A stretch of DNA of 64,000 bases from Rhizobiaceae bacterium (GTDB lineage: Bacteria; Pseudomonadota; Alphaproteobacteria; Rhizobiales; Rhizobiaceae), in the NCBI GenBank assembly GCA_016763155.1, contig JAESUH010000217.1:1-64000 (forward strand), read 5' to 3'. The notes under the pieces were generated by a model, which worked only from the letters and a program-made list of their open reading frames with translations, did not search any database and was not told the origin of the DNA. How positions within the stretch are numbered: position 1 is the first letter of the stretch; every line of letters begins with the position of its first letter. Positions 7,507 to 22,711 of this stretch are shown piece after piece. The position numbers were made by a program, and so were the translations under genes.

Positions 7507-7916
7507 GCTTAAACCCTCAAAAATTCACTGTTCAGTTTTTTGCGGTTGATTGCAAATTTCTACTACTAAAGGATGTAACTGTTTTCTGTTTCGCCAGTTT
7601 AGGCAAGAGCCAAAATGCGTTTGGCTTGAATGGTCGCACAAAAAATCCAAAATTAACAGATATTCAGTTAATTTTTATCGGTAATTTTCGATAGTATCAA
7701 CATCACAAAATAGAACCGAATCATAAATGAAACTGCTTCAAAAAAACCGTCATAAAATCATCATGCAATTTAATCGATTGAACTTTTTTGAAGGGCAAGC
7801 CAGCTGTTGCAACGACCGCTTAAACGCAGTATTGCAAGCGCAATTCAGCAATTTTCCTATGAGCATGTGCTCTACTGCCAATGATAAATTTGGCCCAACC
7901 CTTAAGGAATAACGGC

Positions 7917-10577
7917 ATGACAAAGTGGGTTTATACATTCGGCGACGGTAAGGCCGAAGGTGCAGCCGACATGAAGAACCTTCTTGGAGGCAAGGGCGCG
8001 AACCTTGCTGAAATGAGTTCTTTGGGAATTCCGGTCCCTCCCGGACTGACGATTACCACCGAGGTTTGTTCTGCCTATTACGATGACAACAACACCTATC
8101 CAGCTGAACTTGAAGGTCAGGTGGATTCGGCGCTTGAAGCAATTTCCACCATAACTGGTAGGAAACTTGGCGATCCATCGGCCCCCTTGCTGGTTTCTGT
8201 GCGCTCCGGTGCAAGGGCTTCCATGCCCGGCATGATGGATACGGTTTTGAACCTCGGGCTGAACGACGAGACCGTTGAAGCGCTGGCCGCTGAATCTGGC
8301 GATGCCCGCTTTGCCTATGACAGCTATCGCCGGTTTATCCAGATGTATTGCGATGTGGTGCTTGGGGTTGAACATGAATTGTTTGAAGAAATTCTGGAAG
8401 ATGCCAAGGCTAATAAGGGCTTTGAGCTCGATACAGAACTAAGCGCCGATGACTGGAGAGCGGTTATTATTCGCTTTAAAAAACTGGTCGAAGCAGAGCT
8501 TGGTGAAGCCTTTCCGCAAGACCCTAAAAAGCAACTCTGGGGTGCCATTAGCGCCGTCTTCCGCTCATGGATGAACCAGCGTGCCGACACCTATCGGCGA
8601 CTGCATAATATCCCTGCAAGTTGGGGTACGGCTGTTAACGTACAGGCAATGGTGTTTGGCAATATGGGCGAAAGTTCCGCCACCGGCGTTGCCTTCACCA
8701 GAGACCCTTCCACGGGCGAAAACCGGCTTTACGGAGAATTTCTGATCAATGCTCAGGGCGAAGACGTGGTGGCGGGCATTCGCACGCCGCAGGATTTGAC
8801 CGAAGAGGCCCGCGAAGCTGCATATTCTGACAAGCCCTCGCTTGAGACTTTGATGCCGGAAGCGTTCGCGGAATTTGTGTCTCTGGCCAACAAGCTGGAA
8901 GTGCATTACCGCGATATGCAGGATATCGAATTCACCATCGAGAAAAATAAATTATGGATTTTGCAGACCCGTTCCGGCAAGCGCACCGCCAAAGCTGCCT
9001 TGCGCATGGCGGTGGAAATGGCTGAGAGCGATTTGATTTCCAAACCCGAGGCGGTTGCAAGGATTGATCCTGCATCCCTCGATCAATTGCTCCACCCAAC
9101 CATCGATCCGGCAGCAAAGCGCGATGTGATCGGCAAGGGCCTGCCAGCATCCCCTGGCGCTGCCACTGGCGGTATCGTGTTTTCCTCTAATGAGGCAGAA
9201 CAGATGAAGGCGCAAGGCAAGCCGGTTATTCTGGTTCGCATTGAAACCAGCCCGGAAGACATTCATGGCATGCATGCGGCCGAAGGCATTCTCACCACCA
9301 GAGGCGGCATGACTTCGCACGCAGCAGTGGTAGCGCGCGGCATGGGCACCCCTTGTATTTCGGGGGCCTCCAGCGTCAAAGTGGATTACACCAATGAAAC
9401 GCTTGTGGCCGGTGGCCGTAATTTTGCCAAGGGCGATATCATCACCATTGATGGCTCTAATGGCCAAATTTTGGCGGGCTCCGTTGATATGGTGCAGCCG
9501 GAACTATCAGGCTATTTCGGCACCATTATGGAATGGGCCGATGGCAGCCGCCGCATGAAAGTGCGCACCAATGCCGATACGCCAGCAGATGCACGCGCCG
9601 CACGTTCCTTTGGCGCAGAAGGTATCGGCCTTTGCCGCACGGAACATATGTTCTTTGACGGTGATCGGATTATCGCTGTGCGCGAAATGATCCTTTCAGA
9701 AGACGAAGCAGGAAGACGCGCAGCACTTGATAAACTGCTGCCGATGCAGCGCTCGGATTTCACTGAATTGTTCGAAATCATGGCTGGCCTGCCGGTAACC
9801 ATCCGTCTGCTTGATCCGCCTCTGCATGAATTTTTGCCGAACACTGATGAAGATATTGCGATAGTGGCAAAGGTGATGAATGTGGACCCGGCGAAACTTC
9901 GTGAGCGCGTAGAATCCTTGCACGAGGTAAACCCGATGCTTGGCCACCGCGGTTGCCGTTTGGCGATTTCCTATCCCGAAATTGCCGAAATGCAAACCCG
10001 CGCCGTCATCGAAGCTGCGATTGCTGCGGAGAAGAAAACCGGCGAGGCAATTGAACCTGAAATCATGGTGCCTTTGGTAGCGCTGGAAGAAGAGTTCACC
10101 TTTGTCAAAGATTTGATTGACCGGGTCGCACGCGAGGTTATCGAAGAAGCGGGCGTTGATTTGAAATATTCCGTTGGTACGATGATTGAACTTCCCCGCG
10201 CTATTTTCCGGGCCGGTGAAATCGCTGAGACGGCAGAGTTTTTCTCCTTCGGCAGCAATGATCTCACCCAAACTACCTTCGGCATTTCAAGAGATGATGC
10301 GGGCTCGTTCCTCGGCACCTATGAGGCACAAAACATCATCGAGCGTGATCCGTTCGTAACCATCGATATAAAAGGCGTCGGCGAACTCATGCGCATCGGC
10401 GCAGAACGCGGCCGCGCCACCCGCCCCGACATAAAACTCGGAATTTGCGGCGAACATGGCGGTGATCCGGATTCGATTTTCTTCTGCGAAACGCTGGGGC
10501 TGGACTATGTTTCGTGTTCACCGTTCAGGGTGCCAATTGCAAGGCTGGCTGCGGCGCAAGCGACAACGAAGAGGTAA
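7917..10577 (+). CDS. ppdK: Pyruvate, phosphate dikinase
   Basis: MTKWVYTFGDGKAEG..LLGGKGANLAEM start, phosphohistidine region TRGGMTSHAAVVARGMG, PEP-utilising C-terminal domain. ATG at 7917 preferred over 7881. Confidence 0.95.
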   Translation: MTKWVYTFGDGKAEGAADMKNLLGGKGANLAEMSSLGIPVPPGLTITTEVCSAYYDDNNTYPAELEGQVDSALEAISTITGRKLGDPSAPLLVSVRSGARASMPGMMDTVLNLGLNDETVEALAAESGDARFAYDSYRRFIQMYCDVVLGVEHELFEEILEDAKANKGFELDTELSADDWRAVIIRFKKLVEAELGEAFPQDPKKQLWGAISAVFRSWMNQRADTYRRLHNIPASWGTAVNVQAMVFGNMGESSATGVAFTRDPSTGENRLYGEFLINAQGEDVVAGIRTPQDLTEEAREAAYSDKPSLETLMPEAFAEFVSLANKLEVHYRDMQDIEFTIEKNKLWILQTRSGKRTAKAALRMAVEMAESDLISKPEAVARIDPASLDQLLHPTIDPAAKRDVIGKGLPASPGAATGGIVFSSNEAEQMKAQGKPVILVRIETSPEDIHGMHAAEGILTTRGGMTSHAAVVARGMGTPCISGASSVKVDYTNETLVAGGRNFAKGDIITIDGSNGQILAGSVDMVQPELSGYFGTIMEWADGSRRMKVRTNADTPADARAARSFGAEGIGLCRTEHMFFDGDRIIAVREMILSEDEAGRRAALDKLLPMQRSDFTELFEIMAGLPVTIRLLDPPLHEFLPNTDEDIAIVAKVMNVDPAKLRERVESLHEVNPMLGHRGCRLAISYPEIAEMQTRAVIEAAIAAEKKTGEAIEPEIMVPLVALEEEFTFVKDLIDRVAREVIEEAGVDLKYSVGTMIELPRAIFRAGEIAETAEFFSFGSNDLTQTTFGISRDDAGSFLGTYEAQNIIERDPFVTIDIKGVGELMRIGAERGRATRPDIKLGICGEHGGDPDSIFFCETLGLDYVSCSPFRVPIARLAAAQATTKR

Positions 10578-10586
10578 TTCCTTAAA

Positions 10587-11363
10587 ATGTTCTGGCGCGC
10601 CAAACCGACTATCGACAAGGATGACGAGGGTTGGCAGCTTGAGGCATGGGGTTGGCTATTGGAAAATCTGGGAGGTGTTGAGGGGCTAAAAAGTTACCCG
10701 GCCTTAAAGCCTTCGCAAGCCGATTTCCCGCCTTCTGGAAAAAAACAAATTGCACATGCCGAATTTGTGTTTGAGCAAGTTGCCTCTCGGCTTAATGTTG
10801 ACCCTGGCGATTTTGAACTGGCGCTTCAAGACGAGGATGTTGATCCGATAGTTGGTCCGCTGGCTATTGTCGCAAACGTGCCAAATACTCCTCTTGGCAC
10901 ATATCAACTTGATGGCAATCACAAACACATAATTACCGTCAATCCCAGCAGCCTTAAAGATTTAGAACAATTAATTGCCACCATTGCTCATGAGATTTGT
11001 CACCCAATTCTTCTCACCTTTCCTGAAGCCCCTCCGGGAGGAGCGGAGGCCGAGGAATATGCAACTGACCTTGCGATGGCATTTTTCGGGTTTGGTGTAT
11101 TTGGCGGCAATTCTGCTTTTGTTCATAATCAATTCAATGATAACGCGACCGGGACGCAGGGATGGTCAATCAGCCGCTCGGGATATCTCACGCAGAATGA
11201 ATGGGGCTATGCATTAGCCCTCCGGCATTTGCTAACGCAAGCACCGGAAGAAAGCTGGTTAGAATATCTGGTCGAAGGTCCAATGATTAATTTTCAAAAG
11301 AACCTCAAATATCTCAGGAAGAATATGGATATTGTTGAAGATCTACGTCAACGATTTTCTTGA
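10587..11363 (+). CDS. Uncharacterised protein with HExxH zincin-like motif
   Basis: IATIAHEICHPILL followed by EAEEYATDLAMAFFGFGVF. Begins 10 nt after the ppdK stop. Confidence 0.7.
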   Translation: MFWRAKPTIDKDDEGWQLEAWGWLLENLGGVEGLKSYPALKPSQADFPPSGKKQIAHAEFVFEQVASRLNVDPGDFELALQDEDVDPIVGPLAIVANVPNTPLGTYQLDGNHKHIITVNPSSLKDLEQLIATIAHEICHPILLTFPEAPPGGAEAEEYATDLAMAFFGFGVFGGNSAFVHNQFNDNATGTQGWSISRSGYLTQNEWGYALALRHLLTQAPEESWLEYLVEGPMINFQKNLKYLRKNMDIVEDLRQRFS

Positions 11364-11399
11364 TTGTAACATTCCTCCCTTTGCGTATAGATTACGCTA

Positions 11400-12131
11400 A
11401 TGAAAACAACGTCCAATTCCCAAATGGAAGTTCGCATCTGGCGCGGTAAGGCTGAGGGGGCGTTTTCCTCTTATCATGTGCCGGTGCGCGACAATCAAAC
11501 CATATTGGATGTGGTGACTGAAATTCAACGGGAGCAGGAACCTGCTCTGGCTTATCGTTTTGCCTGTCGGGTCGGGGTTTGTGGCTCCTGTGCCATGACC
11601 GTGAATGGCAAGCCGCGCTGGACTTGTCGTACCCATGTTACCCGCGTTGCCCATGAGGGCGTGCTGACGATTGAACCTTTGCGCAATCTGCCTCGTATCA
11701 AAGATCTTGTTTGCGATATGGGCGATTTTTTTCAAAAATGGCAAAAGGCTGGCGGCAAGCATTCGGGTTCGCTCACGCGGGCGGATAAGCCTGCGCTGGT
11801 TGATATAACCAACCCCGCGCGTGTTACTGCCAATGCAGCGATTGAATGTATCAACTGCGCGATCTGTTATAGCGCTTGCGATGTGGTGGCGTGGGATAAG
11901 GATTATCTTGGGCCTGCTGCGCTTAACCGCGCTTGGACGCTGGTCAATGACGAGCGTCATAGCGAGCGCGAAGAAACCTTTGATAAATCCTTTGGCGAAG
12001 GGGGCTGCGGTTCTTGTCATTCTCAGGGGAACTGTACGCGCCACTGTCCCGTGGAAATTAGTCCGTCTGAAAGCATTGCCGGGTTGAAACGGGCTGCGTT
12101 TTCCGGCTTGCCGAAAATGGATGGCAATTGA
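11400..12131 (+). CDS. Succinate dehydrogenase/fumarate reductase iron-sulfur subunit
   Basis: Ferredoxin-like CRVGVCGSCAM motif plus C-terminal Cys clusters (CINCAICYSAC, CGSCHSQGNCTRHCP). Confidence 0.9.
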   Translation: MKTTSNSQMEVRIWRGKAEGAFSSYHVPVRDNQTILDVVTEIQREQEPALAYRFACRVGVCGSCAMTVNGKPRWTCRTHVTRVAHEGVLTIEPLRNLPRIKDLVCDMGDFFQKWQKAGGKHSGSLTRADKPALVDITNPARVTANAAIECINCAICYSACDVVAWDKDYLGPAALNRAWTLVNDERHSEREETFDKSFGEGGCGSCHSQGNCTRHCPVEISPSESIAGLKRAAFSGLPKMDGN

Positions 12132-12457
12132 TGGAGCGTACTCTTTTCAAAGCCCAGCGTATCAGCGCGATATTATTGGCGCCGTGGGTGCTAATCCATC
12201 TGGGGCTAATTCTTTATGCGGTACGTGGCGGATTGACCGCTGCTGAAATTCTCGATCGGACGCAGGGCAGTCTCTTTTGGGGATTGTTTTACGGCAGCTT
12301 CGTGCTGCTGGTGACCGTTCATGCGCCGATTGGCCTGCGCAATATTTTGCGCGAATGGACACCGCTGAAAAGCGATAACATTAACCCGATGTGCTTCATG
12401 TTCGGGCTGTTTATTTTGGTGATGGGCATTCGCGCTGTCGCGGCGGTGGTAGGATGA
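12131..12457 (+). CDS. Succinate dehydrogenase/fumarate reductase membrane anchor subunit
   Basis: About 108 aa, three TM segments, overlaps the stop of the Fe-S subunit gene. Confidence 0.75.
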   Translation: MERTLFKAQRISAILLAPWVLIHLGLILYAVRGGLTAAEILDRTQGSLFWGLFYGSFVLLVTVHAPIGLRNILREWTPLKSDNINPMCFMFGLFILVMGIRAVAAVVG

Positions 12458-12816
12458 ACAAACTTGGTTTGGGCAAACACCGCCTTCACAAATCTTACTT
12501 CGCATTTCTTGGCCACAGGCTTTCGGGACTGGCGCTGGCGATCTTTTTGCCGTTTCATTTTCTGGCCCTTGGGCTGGCGATGGAGGGGGATAATGCCCTC
12601 GACCAAATGCTTGCGTTTACCGATAACCCAATCGTGAAATTTGCCGAATGGGGGCTGGTGATTTTGCTGGCACTGCATTTCTCTTTCGGGCTGCGTGTGC
12701 TGCTGCTTGAATTCACACCTTGGCCGAGCCGCACTGACCCGAGGCTCGGCTGGATACTCCCCGGCCTGTTTGCTGCGGCTTTCATTGGGTTAATATTTAT
12801 TGTGCAGGTGATGTGA
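12454..12816 (+). CDS. Succinate dehydrogenase cytochrome b556-like subunit
   Basis: MNKLGLGKHRLHKSYFAFLGHRLSGLALAIFLPFHF resembles SdhC. ATG at 12454 overlaps the previous stop. Confidence 0.75.
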   Translation: MNKLGLGKHRLHKSYFAFLGHRLSGLALAIFLPFHFLALGLAMEGDNALDQMLAFTDNPIVKFAEWGLVILLALHFSFGLRVLLLEFTPWPSRTDPRLGWILPGLFAAAFIGLIFIVQVM

Positions 12817-14555
12817 TGCAGATTGAACGTCATGAGACGGATATTCTGGTGCTTGGCACGGGCGGCGCGGGGTTGTTTGCAGCGCTCCATGCCAAGCAAA
12901 CTAACCCTGATGTGAAAATCACCATCGCTGCCAAAGGCTTGCTTGGCAAAAGTGGCTGCACCCGCATGGTTCAGGGCGGCTACAATGTGGCGCTGGCTGA
13001 TGGGGATTCCGTCGAGCGCCATTTCATGGATACGATTGTCGGTGGCAAATGGTTGCCACGGCAAGATTTGGCATGGAATTTATGTGTCAAAGCGGTAGAG
13101 CGCGTTCAGGAACTTGAAAATGAGCTTGGCTGTTTTTTTGATCGCAATACCGATGGCAGCCTGCACCAAAAAGCCTTTGCCGGACAAAGCTTTGACCGCA
13201 CGGTACACAAGGGTGATCTCACCGGCATTGAAATCATTAACCGGCTAATGGAACAGGTCTGGGCTCTGGAATTTGATGCGCTGGAGGAACACCGCGCTAT
13301 TGAACTGATCCCGGCGAAGGATGGTTCAGGTATTTCCGGTGTGCTGCTGGTTGATGTCCGTACGGGTGGCTATCGTTTTGTGAAAGCAAAAGCGGTGTTG
13401 CTTGGCACCGGGGCCGGGCCGACCATGTATCTCTATCACACACCATCGGGGGATAAATCCTGCGATGGGTTGGCGATGGCGCTGCGTTATGGCCTTAAAT
13501 TGCGAGATATGGAGATGGTGCAATTCCATCCGACCGGACTGCTTGGCGGGCCAAATACGCGCATGACCGGCACGGTTCTCGAAGAAGGCCTGCGCGGAGC
13601 CGGAGGGCATTTGCTCAATGGGGACGGTGAGCGTTTCATGCAGAATTATCACCCCAATGGCGAACGGGCGACACGCGATATTGTTTCGCGCGCGATCTAT
13701 TCCGAAATGCGCGATGGGCGCACCACTTCCATGGGCGGTGTCTATATCAAGATGGGTCACCTTGGACCGGAAATGGTGGCGAAGAAATTCCCCGGCATGG
13801 TCAAGCGTTGTGCCGATTGCGGATTCGATCTGGCGGGAGGCCTAGTGGAGGTGGTTCCGACCGCGCATTATATGATGGGCGGCGTCGAATTCGAGATGGA
13901 TTGCTCCACCGCCTCGCCGGGGCTTTATGCGGCCGGTGAGGATTGTGGCGGTGTGCATGGGGCCAACCGGCTCGGCGGCAACGGGGTTGCTAACTCCACT
14001 GTCTATGGCGGCATTGCTGGTGAAACCATGGCTCGGTTTGTTGCCAAAGAGGGTGTTTTGCGCGATCCGGATGAGAGCATTATCGATCAAGGCATTGCAC
14101 GAGCCGAACGGCCCTTCGGGCAAAAATCCGGCAATCTGAATGCTTTACGCGAAAACCTTTGGCAGGATATGTGGAATGAGGTGGGCATTATGCGCACCGC
14201 CGATAGTCTTGCCAAAGGCCAACAGGCGCTCTCGCAGCACCGGCAAGAACTTGTAAAAACCGGACTTGCCGATGGCGACCGTGCTTTTAATCTCACATGG
14301 CATGACTGGTTGAATATGGACAGCCTACTCGAAATTTCTTCGGTGATTACCACCGCTTCGCAATTGCGCGAAGATAGCCGTGGCGCGCATTTCAGGGAAG
14401 ATTTTCCTGATACGGGCGATCTCGATACGACCAAATATACGCAAATCCATCTAAAAGGTGATACGCTCGAAACGGATATGGTTCCGGTGGAATTTACAAT
14501 CGTGAAACCGGGCGAATCCCTGATTGATGATGAGGCAGGAGCACCTCCCAAATGA
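12816..14555 (+). CDS. FAD-binding succinate dehydrogenase/fumarate reductase flavoprotein subunit
   Basis: Dinucleotide-binding VLGTGGAGLFAAL, active-site region HPTG, GANRLGGNGVANSTVYGG. Confidence 0.88.
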   Translation: MQIERHETDILVLGTGGAGLFAALHAKQTNPDVKITIAAKGLLGKSGCTRMVQGGYNVALADGDSVERHFMDTIVGGKWLPRQDLAWNLCVKAVERVQELENELGCFFDRNTDGSLHQKAFAGQSFDRTVHKGDLTGIEIINRLMEQVWALEFDALEEHRAIELIPAKDGSGISGVLLVDVRTGGYRFVKAKAVLLGTGAGPTMYLYHTPSGDKSCDGLAMALRYGLKLRDMEMVQFHPTGLLGGPNTRMTGTVLEEGLRGAGGHLLNGDGERFMQNYHPNGERATRDIVSRAIYSEMRDGRTTSMGGVYIKMGHLGPEMVAKKFPGMVKRCADCGFDLAGGLVEVVPTAHYMMGGVEFEMDCSTASPGLYAAGEDCGGVHGANRLGGNGVANSTVYGGIAGETMARFVAKEGVLRDPDESIIDQGIARAERPFGQKSGNLNALRENLWQDMWNEVGIMRTADSLAKGQQALSQHRQELVKTGLADGDRAFNLTWHDWLNMDSLLEISSVITTASQLREDSRGAHFREDFPDTGDLDTTKYTQIHLKGDTLETDMVPVEFTIVKPGESLIDDEAGAPPK

Positions 14556-15508
14556 TACTGATAGAAACCCTCGAAGAGGCCGCATACGAAATCACAAAGA
14601 AGGCGGCCATTGATATTCCCGAGGACTATTATACCGGCATTCGCGGTATGATTGATCTGGAAAAGGGCGACCTATCCTCCTTCGTATTGGAGGCCATGTG
14701 CGACAATTGGGAGGCAGCTACCGCTGATCGGCGGCCCATGTGTGCTGATACCGGTCTGCCGCGTTACTATGTAAAAATGGGCGATGATGCGTCTTTCAGT
14801 GGTGGCTTCACCGGACTGGAACGCGCGCTTCGTAGCGCCACGGCTCGCGCCACCCATGATGTTCCCCTGCGGCCAAACCGGGTGCATCCGCTTTGGCGCA
14901 CGGAGCATAATAATAATGTAGGGCTGAACGCACCGGAGATTGACTGGTCGTTTGAGCCTGGTGTGGACTGGATTGATATTACCACCGTGCAAAAAGGTGG
15001 TCTGTTTGGCACCGATTACCGGATGCTTTTCCCCGGTGATGGCATTGATGGCATCAAACGGTTTTTCCTTGATACGTTGATTGCCTTCGGCAAGCGCGGT
15101 CTCGCCTGTCAGCCAGCAATTGTTGGCGTGGGCGTTGGTGGTTCGAAAGATACCTGCATGCAATTGGGCAAGCAGGCGGCATGTCTGCGCACAGTTGGCA
15201 ACCGCAATCCTGACCCGAAAATTGCCGAGCTTGAACTGGAACTCAAAGATCTTGGCAATTCTATCGGCATGGGGCCGATGGGTTTTGTTGGTTCTTCGAT
15301 GGTTGTTGATTGTCATATCGAAGCGGGTTTTACCCATACGGGCGGGATGCCTGTGAGCATTCACACATTTTGCTTATCATCGCGCCGCGCCACGGCTCGT
15401 ATTCATAAAGACGGCAGCATTGAATACAGAACGAACCCGGAATGGTTCACCCCTTATATGAGACGGGAGACGATAGATTGGCCCACACCCTTAAGCAAGT
15501 CAGCCTGA
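14552..15508 (+). CDS. Class I fumarate hydratase (or tartrate dehydratase-like) alpha subunit
   Basis: Class I fumarase N-terminal domain motifs (CADTGLPRYYVK, GVGVGGSKDTC). Confidence 0.85.
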   Translation: MILIETLEEAAYEITKKAAIDIPEDYYTGIRGMIDLEKGDLSSFVLEAMCDNWEAATADRRPMCADTGLPRYYVKMGDDASFSGGFTGLERALRSATARATHDVPLRPNRVHPLWRTEHNNNVGLNAPEIDWSFEPGVDWIDITTVQKGGLFGTDYRMLFPGDGIDGIKRFFLDTLIAFGKRGLACQPAIVGVGVGGSKDTCMQLGKQAACLRTVGNRNPDPKIAELELELKDLGNSIGMGPMGFVGSSMVVDCHIEAGFTHTGGMPVSIHTFCLSSRRATARIHKDGSIEYRTNPEWFTPYMRRETIDWPTPLSKSA

Positions 15509-16149
15509 ATATTCCAGCAAGCCCGGAAGATATTGCAGCGCTGGAAATCGGTTCCATCGTATTCCTCAACGGCGTGGTCTATACCGCCCGCGAGGGGGTT
15601 TACGACATGGTGATGAATAAGGGCCGTGTGCTTCCCAATGACCTTAAAGAACTGACCAATGTCAATTTTCATTGTTCGCCAGCTGCTGCATCCAATGAGG
15701 ATGGCAGCTATAGGATTGGCGGCGTTACGGCCACGGCCAGCTTCCGGTTTTCAAAGCAAATGCCAGATTGGCTTGATCTTACCGAAACCAAAATCATCAT
15801 CGGCAAAGGCGGCATGCGCAAGGAAGATTACAAGAACGTGCTTGCTCCGCGCAAAGTGGTTTATCTTTCTACGGTTGGTTACGGCACCGGTGCCTTGCTC
15901 GGGCGCGGGGTGAAAAATGTGCATGCGGTGCATTGGCTCGATGAACTAGGAATTGCTCAGGCACTGTGGATGTTTCAGGTGGAAAATTTCGGTCCGTTCA
16001 TTGTCGATAGCGATATCGAAGGCAATTCCTTGTTTGTTAATCAGGGTGAGCTTGTAAACAAGAATATAGACAAGCTTTATGAAGATCTCAAAAAACCAGC
16101 GCTGCATCGCTATGGCGAGACAGATGATCGCAAAGACGAATTGATGTAA
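15478..16149 (+). CDS. Class I fumarate hydratase beta subunit
   Basis: C-terminal fumarase fold (GKGGM, PRKVVYLSTVGYGTGAL). Likely TTG start at 15478 after a GGGAG-type RBS; ORF track start is 15442. Confidence 0.83.
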   Translation: MAHTLKQVSLNIPASPEDIAALEIGSIVFLNGVVYTAREGVYDMVMNKGRVLPNDLKELTNVNFHCSPAAASNEDGSYRIGGVTATASFRFSKQMPDWLDLTETKIIIGKGGMRKEDYKNVLAPRKVVYLSTVGYGTGALLGRGVKNVHAVHWLDELGIAQALWMFQVENFGPFIVDSDIEGNSLFVNQGELVNKNIDKLYEDLKKPALHRYGETDDRKDELM

Positions 16150-16269
16150 GATGATGAGATAACTCGGCATCTTAACCCTATTGTTCTGAATCTGTATCTC
16201 CACCTGAATCCGCTTGACTGACCGTCATTTCGCAATAGTATCTTCATTATTCTAAATGGGAGGAATAAA

Positions 16270-17493
16270 ATGAAGAAGACTCTTTCTTTCGCAGGGGCGC
16301 TCACCGCAGCTCTTCTTGCGACGACAGGCATTGCAGCTGCAATGGATTGTGGAGAGATCAAGCTGGGTTCAGCAATCTCGCTCACAGGCAAATATTCATC
16401 GGCGGGCATTCATGCTCAGCATGGTTATGAATTTGCCATTAAAAAAATCAAAGACGCCGGTGGCATTAAATTTGGCGGTAAATGCTATAATTTCAACGTC
16501 ATCTACTATGATGATGAGTCCAAAGGCGATCGTGGTGCAACCCTTGCCGAGCGTTTGATCAATCAGGATAAAGTTCAATATATGCTTGGGCCTTATTCAT
16601 CAGGTCTCACCAAGGCGATTGCGCCAATTACTGAGAAATACAAAATTCCGATGGTTGAAGCAGAAGGCGCGTCGCGCTCACTGTTTAACAAAGGCCGCAA
16701 ATATCTGTTTGCTGTGCTTTCAACCTCAGAACAGTACCTAGCCTCTGCGATTACTCTTGCAGGCGAGCAGGCTGTGGCCAACGGTGGAAAAGCAAGCGAC
16801 GTTAAAGTCGCGATTGCCGTTGAAAACGACCCGTTCTCACTGGATATTCGTGCCGGTGTTCTTGCTGACGCTAAAAAAGCGGGCATGACGGTTGTGATCG
16901 ATGAAAAATTGCCTCGTGATCTTTCCGACATGGGCGCGATCCTGACCAAAGTAAAATTGCTTAAGCCAGACGTGCTGATCGTTTCCGGTCACACAAAAGG
17001 TGCTGCAACTGCAGTTCGTCAAGTTGGCGAAATGAAGATCAAGGTGCCAATGTTTGCAATCACTCATTGTGAATCAGCAGACGTTGTTGGTAAATTTGGC
17101 GATTATGCCAATGATGTTTTATGTGCCACCCAGTGGGCTGAAACTTTGACCTATAAAGACGATATCTTTGGCTCAGCGGCTGAATATAACAGCGACATCA
17201 AAGCAAAAGTTGCACATTACTCTGACCGTTCGGTTCCTTACCAAACTGCTCAGGCTTCTGCTGCGGTTTTGGTTTTCAAAGATGCATTTGAGCGCGCTGG
17301 TTCCCTTGATAAGGAAAAAGTGCGTGACGCGATTGCAGCGACTGATCTTGCTACTTTCTACGGCCATATCAAATTTGCCCCTGAAGGTAACAATATGGCG
17401 AAACCAATGGTTTTGCGTCAGATTCAGAACGGCGAATATAAAGTGGTTGCACCAACTGCTTTTGCTACCGACAAGCTGAATTGGCCTCGCTAA
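16270..17493 (+). CDS. Liv-type (HAAT) ABC transporter substrate-binding protein
   Basis: Signal peptide, periplasmic-binding type I features (IKLGSAISLTGKYSSAG), followed by LivHMGF-like genes. Confidence 0.87.
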   Translation: MKKTLSFAGALTAALLATTGIAAAMDCGEIKLGSAISLTGKYSSAGIHAQHGYEFAIKKIKDAGGIKFGGKCYNFNVIYYDDESKGDRGATLAERLINQDKVQYMLGPYSSGLTKAIAPITEKYKIPMVEAEGASRSLFNKGRKYLFAVLSTSEQYLASAITLAGEQAVANGGKASDVKVAIAVENDPFSLDIRAGVLADAKKAGMTVVIDEKLPRDLSDMGAILTKVKLLKPDVLIVSGHTKGAATAVRQVGEMKIKVPMFAITHCESADVVGKFGDYANDVLCATQWAETLTYKDDIFGSAAEYNSDIKAKVAHYSDRSVPYQTAQASAAVLVFKDAFERAGSLDKEKVRDAIAATDLATFYGHIKFAPEGNNMAKPMVLRQIQNGEYKVVAPTAFATDKLNWPR

Positions 17494-17523
17494 GCTAGAA
17501 AATCCCGGCAATAATCAGCCGGA

Positions 17524-17560
17524 ACATCGGGGGCCTTTGATGATCCCCGATGTCATTTTT
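17524..17560 (+). terminator. Hairpin ACATCGGGG..CCCCGATGT followed by T-run
   Basis: Perfect 9-bp stem 17524-17532/17545-17553 then CATTTTTT, between substrate-binding protein and LivH genes. Confidence 0.75.
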
Positions 17561-17627
17561 TAAGATGTATGTTGCTCAAAAAAAACAAGCTGGAATAACC
17601 GGCTGAGAGCGCATTCAGGGGAACATT

Positions 17628-18539
17628 ATGAATCAGATTTTCTCAAACATCTCTTTGTTGTTTGAATTTCCAGTCGTCAATATTTCAATTCTACTTGAAG
17701 GTTTGATGATCGGCTCACTATTCGCGCTATCTGCCTACGGTTTGGCATTAGTATGGGGCGTAATGAACGTCAAAAACCTTGCACAGGGCGACTTTGTGGT
17801 TGCTGGCGGTTACGTTTCCTGGTTTTTCTCCCAATATGGCATGCACCCGCTTTTCGGCGTCCCGCTGGCATTTGTAATAATGTGGGGCATTGGCTGGGTC
17901 ATTTACAAAACAGTTATTTCCCGCGTGATCGAACGCGATCTCTTCACCTCGCTTCTTGCCACATTTGGTCTGGCAATTATGATGGCGCAGTTGATGAATT
18001 TGATGTTTGGTTCCGATACGCAAAGTATCAAGCTGGAATTTGAAACCCTCTATTTCTTCGATGATTTTGTAAGCATACCCATCGCTAAACTCATCGGTGT
18101 CATCATGGCCCTGTCATTGGCAGCTGCCGTTATCACTTTCATGAAAACCAGCCGTATGGGCCAGGCGATCCGCGCTACAGCGCAGGATGCACGCGCTGCA
18201 CGGGTGATGGGAATTGATACGGAAAAAATTTACGCCTTCACATTCTCGCTCAACTCCGCAATTTGCGGTGCTGCAGGCGCGATCATCGTGATGGTCTGGC
18301 TGATCCAGCCATTCTACGGCATCACCTATTCCATTCGTGCCTTTGTGATTGTGACGGCAGCAGGCCTTGGCAATCTGCCGGGCGTGATTGCAGCAGGCCT
18401 CGGCATTGGCGCGCTGGAACAATATGGTTCGCACATTTTCGGCATTGGCTATCAGCAGGCAATTGCCGTGTTGCTGTTGCTCTTTGTTCTATTCATCCGA
18501 CTGTTGCAACAGCGCCGGTCCCGACAGGCATTGCGGTAG
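17628..18539 (+). CDS. Branched-chain amino acid-type ABC permease (LivH family)
   Basis: Hydrophobic LivH-type sequence (GLALVWGVMNVKNLAQGDFV). Confidence 0.88.
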   Translation: MNQIFSNISLLFEFPVVNISILLEGLMIGSLFALSAYGLALVWGVMNVKNLAQGDFVVAGGYVSWFFSQYGMHPLFGVPLAFVIMWGIGWVIYKTVISRVIERDLFTSLLATFGLAIMMAQLMNLMFGSDTQSIKLEFETLYFFDDFVSIPIAKLIGVIMALSLAAAVITFMKTSRMGQAIRATAQDARAARVMGIDTEKIYAFTFSLNSAICGAAGAIIVMVWLIQPFYGITYSIRAFVIVTAAGLGNLPGVIAAGLGIGALEQYGSHIFGIGYQQAIAVLLLLFVLFIRLLQQRRSRQALR

Positions 18540-18548
18540 GAGGCGATC

Positions 18549-19595
18549 ATGATTACTCAAAAACCAATATTTTACGCAGGCCTTCTTGCGCTTATCATTG
18601 TGTTGCCATTTCTGTTTCCAACATATGGCGTACAACTTGCGGCCATGTGGCTGATGATTATTGTCGCCATGACATGGGATATGACCGGCGGCCAAATGGG
18701 CTATAATTCCCTGGGCAATATCTTCTTTTATGGCACCGGCATGTATGTGGCGGCACTGGTGTTCATTGGCTTCTCCCATGATATCGGCCAGTATACCGAT
18801 GCATCTGGCGGCGGATCGTTCCAGTTTACCGATGCACAGTATTTCACCGGGCTTTTCCTCGGACTTATTGCGGCAGGATTCTTTTGTGCTGTAAGCGCTG
18901 TCGTCATTGGCATGCTGATCTTTGGATTGCGCGGGCCTTATTTTGCCATTGGAACGCTAGCCGTGGCGATTGCTGCAGGTGAACTGGTATCCAACTGGGA
19001 CTGGGTTGGTGGCGGTCAGGGCATCGCCCTACCAATTTATCCGGGTGACATCGATGTGGGTAAGAAGTTCTTCTACTTCATGTTTGCCGGGCTCGGGGTC
19101 AGTGTATTCATATTCTTAAAATGGCTCTACACCACGCGCTTTGGTGCTGCGATTAATGCCATTCGTGATGACGAAGAAAAAGCAGAAGCCATGGGCATTC
19201 ATACCATGTGGTACAAACTCACCACATGGGCGATTTCAGCATTCTTCGTGGGCATTGCAGGCGGGTTATCAGCCTTCCAGCTAATCCACTTCGAACCTCT
19301 TGAGTCGGCTTACCAAACCATCAACCTTGGAATTTTCATGGTGGTCTGCGTTTTATTAGGCGGCAAAGGAACCCTTTGGGGACCGGTTATTGGTGCGATT
19401 GTATTTCACCTTTTCAAGGAAATCACATGGGCTTATTTGCTCGGTTGGCAATGGGTGGCACTTGGCGGCCTGATCGTTGTTACCGTGGTTTATTTTCAAG
19501 ACGGCTTTATGGGCTGGCTTAAACATCAAAAACCGGAATGGTTTGGCATTCGTGTGGAAGATAGTTCCACAGGAAAAGCGGGGACAGCCGAATGA
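18549..19595 (+). CDS. Branched-chain amino acid-type ABC permease (LivM family)
   Basis: LivM-type TM protein with the INAIRDDEEKAEAMGI loop motif. Confidence 0.88.
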   Translation: MITQKPIFYAGLLALIIVLPFLFPTYGVQLAAMWLMIIVAMTWDMTGGQMGYNSLGNIFFYGTGMYVAALVFIGFSHDIGQYTDASGGGSFQFTDAQYFTGLFLGLIAAGFFCAVSAVVIGMLIFGLRGPYFAIGTLAVAIAAGELVSNWDWVGGGQGIALPIYPGDIDVGKKFFYFMFAGLGVSVFIFLKWLYTTRFGAAINAIRDDEEKAEAMGIHTMWYKLTTWAISAFFVGIAGGLSAFQLIHFEPLESAYQTINLGIFMVVCVLLGGKGTLWGPVIGAIVFHLFKEITWAYLLGWQWVALGGLIVVTVVYFQDGFMGWLKHQKPEWFGIRVEDSSTGKAGTAE

Positions 19596-20335
19596 CCAAA
19601 ATTATTGAAGTTAGCAATGTCTCCAAATCTTACGGCGGTGTGATCGCCAATAAGGATGTATCACTGAGCGTGAAAAAGGGCACCATTACCGGGCTGATTG
19701 GTCCCAATGGTTCCGGTAAAACCACCCTGTTTAATTCGATTGTCGGCTATCACCCGATTGATAGTGGTTCGATCAAATTTGAAAACAACGAAATTTCAAA
19801 TTTGCAGGTTCAGGAAATCGCCCGTTTAGGAATGCTGAGAACTTTCCAGCAAACCCGTATTTACGGCGAAATGAACTGCGTGGAAAATATGCTGATTTCA
19901 TTGCCGCACCGCAAGATGAGTTGGCGCGATCGCTTTGCCAGCAATACCAAAACTGATTATGAACGTGCCGATCATTTGCTGGAATTTGTCGGGCTTTATG
20001 AAAAGCGGTTTTTGCGCTCTGGATCACTTTCCTTTGGGCAGCAAAAATTGCTGGAATTTGCCATGGCACTGATGAATGAGCCAACGGTTCTGCTGCTTGA
20101 CGAACCAACGGCGGGCATTAACCCGACCTTGATTAATGGTCTGATTGATCGGCTGAAGCGGGCGAATACAGAGTTTGGCATTACGCTGTTTATCATCGAG
20201 CATAATATGCGGGTGATTATGAATATGGCTGACACCATTTATTGCTTGGCCCATGGGGAGATGCTGGCTTCCGGCACACCAGACGAAATTCAAAACAACC
20301 AAAATGTGGTTGATGCCTATCTTGGAGCACATTAA
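19592..20335 (+). CDS. ABC transporter ATP-binding protein (LivG family)
   Basis: Walker A GPNGSGKTT, LSFGQQKL signature, Walker B LLLDEPTAG. Confidence 0.9.
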   Translation: MTKIIEVSNVSKSYGGVIANKDVSLSVKKGTITGLIGPNGSGKTTLFNSIVGYHPIDSGSIKFENNEISNLQVQEIARLGMLRTFQQTRIYGEMNCVENMLISLPHRKMSWRDRFASNTKTDYERADHLLEFVGLYEKRFLRSGSLSFGQQKLLEFAMALMNEPTVLLLDEPTAGINPTLINGLIDRLKRANTEFGITLFIIEHNMRVIMNMADTIYCLAHGEMLASGTPDEIQNNQNVVDAYLGAH

Positions 20336-21264
20336 TGGCTGATAAAAAAACACCCAAAAAAAGCGCCTCGAAGAAGCCCAAGAAAAAGGCCGCCAAAAAA
20401 ACTTCGGCAAAAAGTGTTAGCGGCTATGCCTCTGGTGGCGTCGATTCAATTATTTCGGTTGAGGATGTTAACCGTCAGGCCAAGGCCATTGCTGAGGACA
20501 TTTCCATCGAGCAACTTGACGATTTGGCAGGTAACGATGCCTTCATTTCTATCGAGAACCTCACAGCTGGCTATGGCAAAATGGAGATTTTGCACAACCT
20601 TAACCTTCGGGTTGGACGCAAACAATCTCTTTGCCTAATTGGTCCAAACGGGGCGGGTAAATCAACCATTCTCCATGCAATATTTGGCTTCAATGATATT
20701 TTTAGCGGCAGTATTTTTATCGGCGAAGGTGCTAATCGCCGCGATGTCACCAAATTGTCTCCAAGCGAAAAACTGTCAGAGGCAGGCATCGCCTATATTT
20801 TGCAGGATAAATCCGTATTTCCCGGTATGACGGTGGAAGAGAATTTGTGGATGGGCGGATTTCTGAAAGACAAGCCCACTGAAGCTAAACGGGCAGCGGA
20901 AGCAGTCTTTGATAAATATCCTCGCCTAGCCGCTCGCAGAAAACATTTGGCAAAAGTGCTTTCTGGCGGCGAGCGACGTCTGTTGGAAATTTCCCGTGCA
21001 TTGGTAATGAACCCTGAAGTGCTGCTGGTGGATGAACCCTCTATTGGGCTTGAACCACGGTTTATCGACATGGTTTTTGAAATCTTGCATGATCTGCAAC
21101 ATAAGGAAGGCAAGACCATCATTATGGTTGAGCAGAACGCCAAAAAGGGCCTTGAATTTGCTGATCTTGGTTATGTTCTGGTATCGGGAGAAGTTGCAAT
21201 TGCGGGAACTGGCGATGAATTGCTTGCAAATCCAAAAGTTGGCCAGCTCTTCCTTGGTGGCTAA
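20335..21264 (+). CDS. ABC transporter ATP-binding protein (LivF family) with Lys-rich N-terminal extension
   Basis: TAATG overlap with previous stop. About 69-aa N-terminal extension precedes the LivF domain (Walker A GPNGAGKST, LSGGERRL, LLVDEPS). Confidence 0.9.
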   Translation: MADKKTPKKSASKKPKKKAAKKTSAKSVSGYASGGVDSIISVEDVNRQAKAIAEDISIEQLDDLAGNDAFISIENLTAGYGKMEILHNLNLRVGRKQSLCLIGPNGAGKSTILHAIFGFNDIFSGSIFIGEGANRRDVTKLSPSEKLSEAGIAYILQDKSVFPGMTVEENLWMGGFLKDKPTEAKRAAEAVFDKYPRLAARRKHLAKVLSGGERRLLEISRALVMNPEVLLVDEPSIGLEPRFIDMVFEILHDLQHKEGKTIIMVEQNAKKGLEFADLGYVLVSGEVAIAGTGDELLANPKVGQLFLGG

Positions 21265-21276
21265 GAAGGTGGCAGC

Positions 21277-21987
21277 ATGAACGTTAAGGCGATCCTGTTT
21301 GACAAGGATGGCACGCTGATTGATTTCCATGCCACATGGGATCGCGCGACCTTTGATGTTTTTGAACACCTTGCCAAAGGTGATATGGACCTCGTTGCAA
21401 AGCTGGCCGAAATCTCTGATCTTGATATGGAAACCAAAGCCATTGGCGCTAATTCCATTCTGGTGGCTGAAAGCTCTGAGGAGATCGGCAGACGCTGGGC
21501 GACAGTCCTCTCCAGAGAAGCCGACCAAGATTTCCTTGATGAGGTTGATGTTCTTTACGGCAGATTTGGCGAAAAATACCTGACCAGCTTCCCAAGCACC
21601 CAAGGTGTTTTGAAGTCGCTGCAAGAGCATGGCTATTTGCTGGGTATTGCTACCAATGATAGCGAACGAAACGCCGTCACCCAGATGGATAATTTGGGCT
21701 GGCACAAATATTTCACCGCAATTTACGGCTATGATAGTGGCCATGGCGAAAAGCCTGGCCCCGGCATGGTTAACGCCTTTTGTGAACTCACCGGTTTCAA
21801 GCCTGAAGAAATCCTCATGGTTGGCGACACCCTCCATGACATTTCGGCTGGAACGAATGCGGGCGCGTTGACCATTGGTGTCACCACCGGTCCCGCAAAG
21901 GGCGCAGATTTGCCGGGTAAAGCCCATGCTATAATTGATGATCTGGATGAGCTATTGCATGTGTTGCAACAATCCCCATTTTGCTGA
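21277..21987 (+). CDS. HAD-superfamily hydrolase (phosphoglycolate phosphatase-like)
   Basis: HAD motif I LFDKDGTLIDF and motif IV VGDTLHDI. Confidence 0.88.
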   Translation: MNVKAILFDKDGTLIDFHATWDRATFDVFEHLAKGDMDLVAKLAEISDLDMETKAIGANSILVAESSEEIGRRWATVLSREADQDFLDEVDVLYGRFGEKYLTSFPSTQGVLKSLQEHGYLLGIATNDSERNAVTQMDNLGWHKYFTAIYGYDSGHGEKPGPGMVNAFCELTGFKPEEILMVGDTLHDISAGTNAGALTIGVTTGPAKGADLPGKAHAIIDDLDELLHVLQQSPFC

Positions 21988-22021
21988 TACTTGCATTAAA
22001 ATATTCTAACAAGGCGAATAA

Positions 22022-22711
22022 ATGAAAATTGGAATTCTGCTAACCGGGCATGTGCCACCGGAACTAATTGATAAGCACGGCCCCTATATGGAAATGTTTG
22101 CCAAGCTGCTTGATGGACACGACTTTACCTTCACCAATTACGCGGTGGTGGATAATGAATTTCCAAAATCCGTTGAGGAAATGGATGGCTGGTTGGTGAC
22201 GGGTTCAAAACACGGATCCTATGAAGACCTTGAATGGATACCACCTTTGGAGGCATTTATTCGCGAGAGCTATGCAGCTGGAATTCCAATTATCGGAATT
22301 TGCTTTGGCCATCAGGTGATGGCTCAGGCGCTGGGTGGCAAGGTAGAGAAATTTTCTGGTGGCTGGAGCATTGGCCGAACCGACTATGCACTCGTTGGAG
22401 AAGATGAAAAATCTTTGCTCGCCATGCATCAGGATCAAGTTGTTCAAATACCCGAAGATGCAACGGTCATTGCCAGCAATGATTTTTGTGCCAATGCGGG
22501 CCTTGCCTATAAGGGCAGCGCCCTAAGCTTCCAGCCTCATCCGGAATTTTCACCGGAATACGCAGAAGATTTGATCCGGATGCGCGCTGGTGTCGCGTTG
22601 CCGCAAGAGCTTGCGGATGATGCGTTGGCAAAATTAAATATACCAAATGATTCAAAAGAAATTGCCGACAAGATGGCTGGCTTTTTTAAGGAAAATAAAC
22701 AGGATAGATAA
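22022..22711 (+). CDS. Class I (type 1) glutamine amidotransferase-like protein
   Basis: GICFGHQVMAQALGG nucleophile elbow and FQPHPEFSPE His-Glu motif. Confidence 0.88.
   Translation: MKIGILLTGHVPPELIDKHGPYMEMFAKLLDGHDFTFTNYAVVDNEFPKSVEEMDGWLVTGSKHGSYEDLEWIPPLEAFIRESYAAGIPIIGICFGHQVMAQALGGKVEKFSGGWSIGRTDYALVGEDEKSLLAMHQDQVVQIPEDATVIASNDFCANAGLAYKGSALSFQPHPEFSPEYAEDLIRMRAGVALPQELADDALAKLNIPNDSKEIADKMAGFFKENKQDR

Follow-up and report, generated by a model that had tools for sequence, protein, structure and literature searches.

In a cyanobacterium, PII binds UrtE, the LivF-type ATPase of the urea importer, and controls the uptake of urea, so that a LivF-type subunit can be a regulatory target (PMC6603209). 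Lysine-rich tails are described on AlgP and PhaF; DNA is bound by peptides of the KPAA-repeat type, and AlgP is found at polyphosphate granules (PMC9239181). We report here on a LivF-type ATPase with a 67-residue N-terminal extension, encoded in a 64,000-nucleotide stretch (the window; positions 1–64,000 of contig JAESUH010000217.1, assembly GCA_016763155.1) from a Rhizobiaceae bacterium. Literature searches found no account of such an extension on LivF.

Organization of the importer locus

The ATPase gene closes a set of five genes, whose positions in the window are as follows.

16270–17493, plus strand: livK-like periplasmic binding protein (Peripla_BP_6)
17628–18539, plus strand: livH-like permease
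18549–19595, plus strand: livM-like permease
19592–20335, plus strand: livG, the partner ATPase
20536–21261, plus strand: LivF-type ABC ATPase domain, with Walker A GPNGAGKST, signature LSGGE, Walker B LLVDEP and VEQN at the switch

The set has the make-up of a LivKHMGF importer, in that it encodes two ATPases, two permeases and one type I binding protein. Among solved structures, the binding protein is best matched by PDB entry 8wch, a probable Leu/Ile/Val-binding protein (85.6 bits), and the ATPase domain is nearest to 1ji0. GPNGAGKST, LSGGE and VDEP are invariant in 75 aligned orthologues, as in an ABC-type ATPase, and the Pfam model ABC_tran matches residues 86–235 with 96.6 bits against a cut-off of 25. 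The score for the LivF equivalog NF008626 is 189 bits (curated cut-off 441) and that for the UrtE equivalog TIGR03410 is 169.4 bits (curated cut-off 285.8). To judge from these scores, the window ATPase is LivF-like and is not an equivalog of Escherichia coli LivF.

The genes livK, livH, livM, livG and livF are found together, with their order kept, in nearly all loci that have room for them, while the genes flanking them vary from locus to locus. A partner for the extension is therefore to be expected within the transporter or in an unlinked regulator. We note that genes resembling succinate dehydrogenase/fumarate reductase, followed by a fumarase alpha/beta pair, occupy positions 11400–16146 of the window directly upstream of livK, and that a fumarate reductase-like and fumarase block also lies near livK in the gamma-labelled MAGs L046, L057, L066, L072 and L105. 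This recurrence suggests a shared function or transfer of the block. The window genes downstream of livF (HAD hydrolase, GATase, enoyl-CoA hydratase and acyl-CoA synthetase) were considered as functional clues and set aside, as these neighbours are not conserved.

Reading frame and translation start

The features of the ATPase gene that bear on the extension are listed below.

20324–20327, plus strand: GGAG, probable ribosome-binding site inside the last livG codons
20333–20337, plus strand: TAATG, overlap of the livG stop and livF start
20335–21264, plus strand: livF-type open reading frame, 309 amino acids
20335–20421, plus strand: variable tip, residues 1–29
20422–20457, plus strand: motif GYxxGxVDxVIS, residues 30–41, with strongly conserved columns
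20458–20529, plus strand: two short predicted helices, residues 42–51 and 58–65

The sequence-only reading had relied on the TAATG overlap and the upstream GGAG for the start, and both are present, with 7 nucleotides between GGAG and the livF start. Most orthologues show the same G-rich stretch ahead of the start, and in most of them the livF start adjoins the livG stop at a distance of -1 (GGGAGCGCACTGATG and similar; 80 loci from species genomes together with loci from the search for relatives). That extra residues precede the ABC domain is likewise borne out, since the best NCBIfam matches begin at residues 69–72, ahead of the Pfam match, and the domain runs from about residue 70 on.

The same assembly contains a syntenic contig (C215, with loci L031 and L165) that shares 82.8% DNA identity with the window across 10.5 kb. 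Across window positions 7915–22057 the identity of this contig is 78–83%, and it is 95% identical to a contig of the congener G002; it is probably a contaminating congener in the G000 MAG rather than the source of a paralogue. The tip of its orthologue, MADKKKPKKSAVKKTKKKSAVKSKIKTKAKTTEKAIS, keeps the reading frame of the window tip and is separated from it by an 8-residue indel. Between the two congeners, synonymous and non-synonymous codon changes number 10 and 8 in the tip, 15 and 10 in the conserved element that follows it, and 115 and 11 in the ATPase core.

The extension is very probably translated, because the frame is conserved in the diverged congener and the start adjoins the livG stop in most orthologues. 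We consider it extremely improbable that the true start lies downstream and that the tail is never made. A TTG at 20524 is the only downstream start listed before the ABC domain, and its use would remove an element that is itself conserved; the position of the start beside livG in most orthologues and the preserved frame in the congener both argue against it. Neither a downstream start nor a local artefact, which had been foreseen as possible objections, is borne out, and close orthologues also carry an extension.

Sequence and predicted structure of the extension

The extension, taken as a whole in the sequence-only reading, falls into two parts, the variable tip and a conserved element at residues 30–67. 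The element has the form GYxxGxVDxVISVEEVxRQAxxIAE followed by a second short helix, and it is present in 122 of 123 orthologues. The sole orthologue lacking GYxxGxVDxVISVEEV is L096:3299–4183, in which no frameshift was seen. In the aligned columns, Gly30 is found in 86/87 sequences, Tyr31 in 83/87, Gly34 in 81/87, Val39 and Ile40 each in 84/87, Ser41 in 88/88, Val42 in 87/88, Val45 in 88/88, Gln48 in 77/88, Ala53 in 79/88 and Leu64 in 86/88. The best conserved of these residues are as invariant as catalytic motifs such as Walker A. As 80 of the orthologue loci were picked by exact peptide patterns of the window protein, that set is biased to close relatives; the later genome samples were not chosen in this way. 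Residues 28–67 of the window protein hold eight Asp or Glu and two Lys or Arg, and across orthologues the element is acidic, with a median net charge of -6. An acidic segment after the lysines had indeed been noticed, but the strong conservation of the element lying there had been missed. With the element alone as query, Pfam and PDB searches gave no credible match.

An AlphaFold2 model was calculated with a 75-row orthologue alignment (A1) as input. Residues 1–38 have pLDDT values below 50, the helices at 42–51 and 58–65 have block means of 79–92, and the ABC fold follows; the invariant Ser41 directly precedes the first helix. From model confidence alone, we infer that the two short helices pack on the ATPase domain. 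To look for docking of the motif on LivG, LivG and LivF were modelled together from locus L046, in which both genes share a frame, by reading through the in-frame livG stop. The two helices recur in this model and the motif again falls below 50, with a pTM of 0.52 and 10 sequences in the alignment. A larger alignment was dropped when its LivF rows aligned on LivG. A conserved motif of low confidence beside confident helices is the appearance expected of a segment that folds on binding.

The tip of the window protein contains 12 Lys in its first 26 residues, and the translation of 20335–20580 agrees with the sequence-only reading in this count. The binomial probability of at least 12 Lys in 29 residues is about 4e-9 against a sampled background of 4.8% Lys, taken from 225 open reading frames in 274 kb of the same genome; the highest count listed for the first 29 residues of the other N-termini in this sample is 8. 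We also note a further Lys-rich N-terminus in the same genome, MATKVKEKKTDKKQKAEAPDG (L132:15726–17741), on what is presumably a housekeeping sigma factor, and a 358-residue open reading frame (L115:1133–2206) with an internal 29-residue stretch containing 14 Lys (KPSPQVKKKPIKKKKRAEKKKPRKKKSAS). The window tip has the composition of the Lys/Ala/Pro-rich disordered tails known as histone H1-like bacterial tails (12 Lys of 29, pLDDT about 30–34), but no tandem repeat was found in it, nor the KPAA-type repeat of the AlgP and PhaF tails.

Among 88 aligned orthologues the tip, taken as the residues before Gly30, ranges from 5 to 154 residues, with a median length of 14.5 and a median net charge of 0. 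A net charge of +6 or more, which we call strongly cationic, is found in eight of these, and two of the eight are the same congener sequence. Over all orthologues the length is 4–154 residues and the net charge is -5 to +33. Tips of at least 37 residues are mostly strongly cationic, with L006 and L075 as near-neutral exceptions. The description of the extension as histone-tail-like thus suits the Lys-rich tip in several lineages but not the conserved residues 30–67 behind it, and fits only the variable part. The alignments indicate that selection keeps the conserved part of the extension and not the lysines.

Distribution of the element and evolution of the lysines

A profile of the element alone (A3) was run on 1,082 genome draws, in which some genomes were drawn more than once, and gave matches in 25 of 298 genomes of the order, 29 of 385 of the class and 10 of 399 of the phylum. 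Every strong match (E below 1e-5) whose locus was read lies directly before the same LivF core; L155, cut by a contig end, and a second match in G696 (E = 1.5e-8) stand outside this count. The matches weaker than E = 5e-4 lack such a core and look fortuitous. Among the matches listed, LivF relatives are either at least 70% or at most 45% identical to the window protein, and the alignments of the latter generally begin near residue 60–70. Five LivF homologues matching upstream of the domain (L159–L163) were considered as carriers of a related extension; their loci were read and none proved related. Alignment of LivF orthologues, the check that the sequence-only reading had proposed, places an extension in the close orthologues, which excludes a local artefact. 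Judged by sequence, the extension is a widespread and real feature of one LivF subfamily.

When the genome samples are included, strongly cationic tips number 14 of 121. They comprise the window, the congener copy (L031), the Rhizobiaceae-like MAGs L033 (a tip of 154 residues) and L043, five members of Hyphomicrobiales or the same order (L045, L048, L052, L141 and L143), L156, whose tip is truncated at a contig end, and the four members found in another family, f226 (L182, L183, L185 and L196), all of which carry AKKA-type arrays of 56–96 residues. Family f226 belongs to the same class and its genomes measure 2.0–2.8 Mb. Weak repeat units of about 13–16 bases are present in the tips of L182, L183 and L185. 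On a quick tree built from the ATPase domain alone, many forks of which are weakly supported, the cationic label requires at least six changes, and a single cationic clade is rejected by the AU test (p-AU 0.006). The phylogeny therefore indicates that the lysine tail arose, or disappeared, more than once.

Possible roles of the extension

In our view, with a probability of about one half, the window protein is the LivF-type subunit of a distinct five-gene importer of the branched-chain/amide family, in which the element has a docking or regulatory role and the tip acts as a permissive spacer with lysines that may contact lipid. The element would act as a docking or regulatory segment specific to the subfamily. 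Its flexible GYxxGxVDxVIS motif would probably fold on meeting a partner, which could be the coupling face of a permease, LivG or a regulator, and the two short helices would then sit beside the ATPase domain. The element is conserved, flexible, confined to one subfamily and tied to no genes but those of its own operon, so that its docking partner most likely lies in the transporter itself or is an unlinked regulator. The tip would serve as a flexible spacer, able to vary widely in length and charge. Where it has evolved a Lys/Ala-rich composition, as it appears to have done repeatedly in the window genus and in other lineages, it may give weak, non-specific electrostatic contact, for which the likeliest partner would be the membrane's acidic inner surface, at which the ATPase operates.

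The two leading readings of the tip are that it makes such a contact at the inner leaflet and that it has no function at all. In the latter case it would be a neutral disordered spacer running from the livG overlap to the element and growing by low-complexity codon repeats, with unimportant lysines, a tentative alternative to which we give appreciable weight. The wide range of lengths and charges among orthologues favours it, as do the short repeat units in the three f226 tips and, between the congeners, the relatively greater share of non-synonymous change together with the indel. However, the charge shifts repeatedly in one direction and the longer tips are mostly strongly cationic; moreover, the window tip has no tandem repeat and lysines are kept in two congeners despite 17% DNA divergence. 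The sequence-only reading had suggested tethering to nucleic acid or acidic lipid, but since most orthologue tips are short and near-neutral such binding cannot be what the extension is conserved for. A tether of the transporter to DNA, RNA or polyphosphate in those proteins that do have a Lys-rich tip, like the supposed role of the AlgP and PhaF tails, is possible by analogy with the properties reported for those proteins (PMC9239181), and the H1-type composition is clearest in L033, L182, L183 and L185. We nevertheless regard it as improbable: composition alone is unspecific, neighbouring genes lend no support, most orthologues have no cationic tip and a membrane-held ATPase has no known reason for gripping the nucleoid.

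The element could also be where a soluble regulator docks, much as PII acts on UrtE (PMC6603209), and its conservation, acidity and partial disorder would suit this. We think it unlikely, as no regulator gene conserved beside the operon was found in the orthologue loci and the PII–UrtE site is not known to lie in an N-terminal extension. Slightly more doubtful is the bolder proposal that the element is an undescribed regulatory module and the tip a convergent polycationic tether toward acidic lipid, polyphosphate or nucleic acid. Docking of the element and lipid contact of the tip are the roles that we infer. The orthologues provide a natural series of tails on one ATPase, from neutral to +33, for tests of polycationic disordered tails at the bacterial membrane.

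Comparison with described systems

The AlgP and PhaF tails share with the window protein a disordered, Lys-rich, low-complexity tail on a folded protein. Those tails are C-terminal and repeat-based, whereas the window tail is N-terminal, short, devoid of tandem repeats and attached to a transporter ATPase. PII–UrtE (PMC6603209) offers a LivF-type ATPase as a point of regulation, but PII is not known to bind UrtE at an extension of this kind, and no PII link was found in the window system. With the LivF- and UrtE-type ATPases (NF008626 and TIGR03410; 1ji0) the window protein has in common the ATPase domain, the livKHMGF order and the partner LivG, yet both of its scores fall far short of the curated cut-offs, and its 67-residue extension is not matched by LivF homologues at or below about 45% identity. 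The conserved extra segment, which has no match in the Pfam library, defines a subfamily within a very common class of importers.
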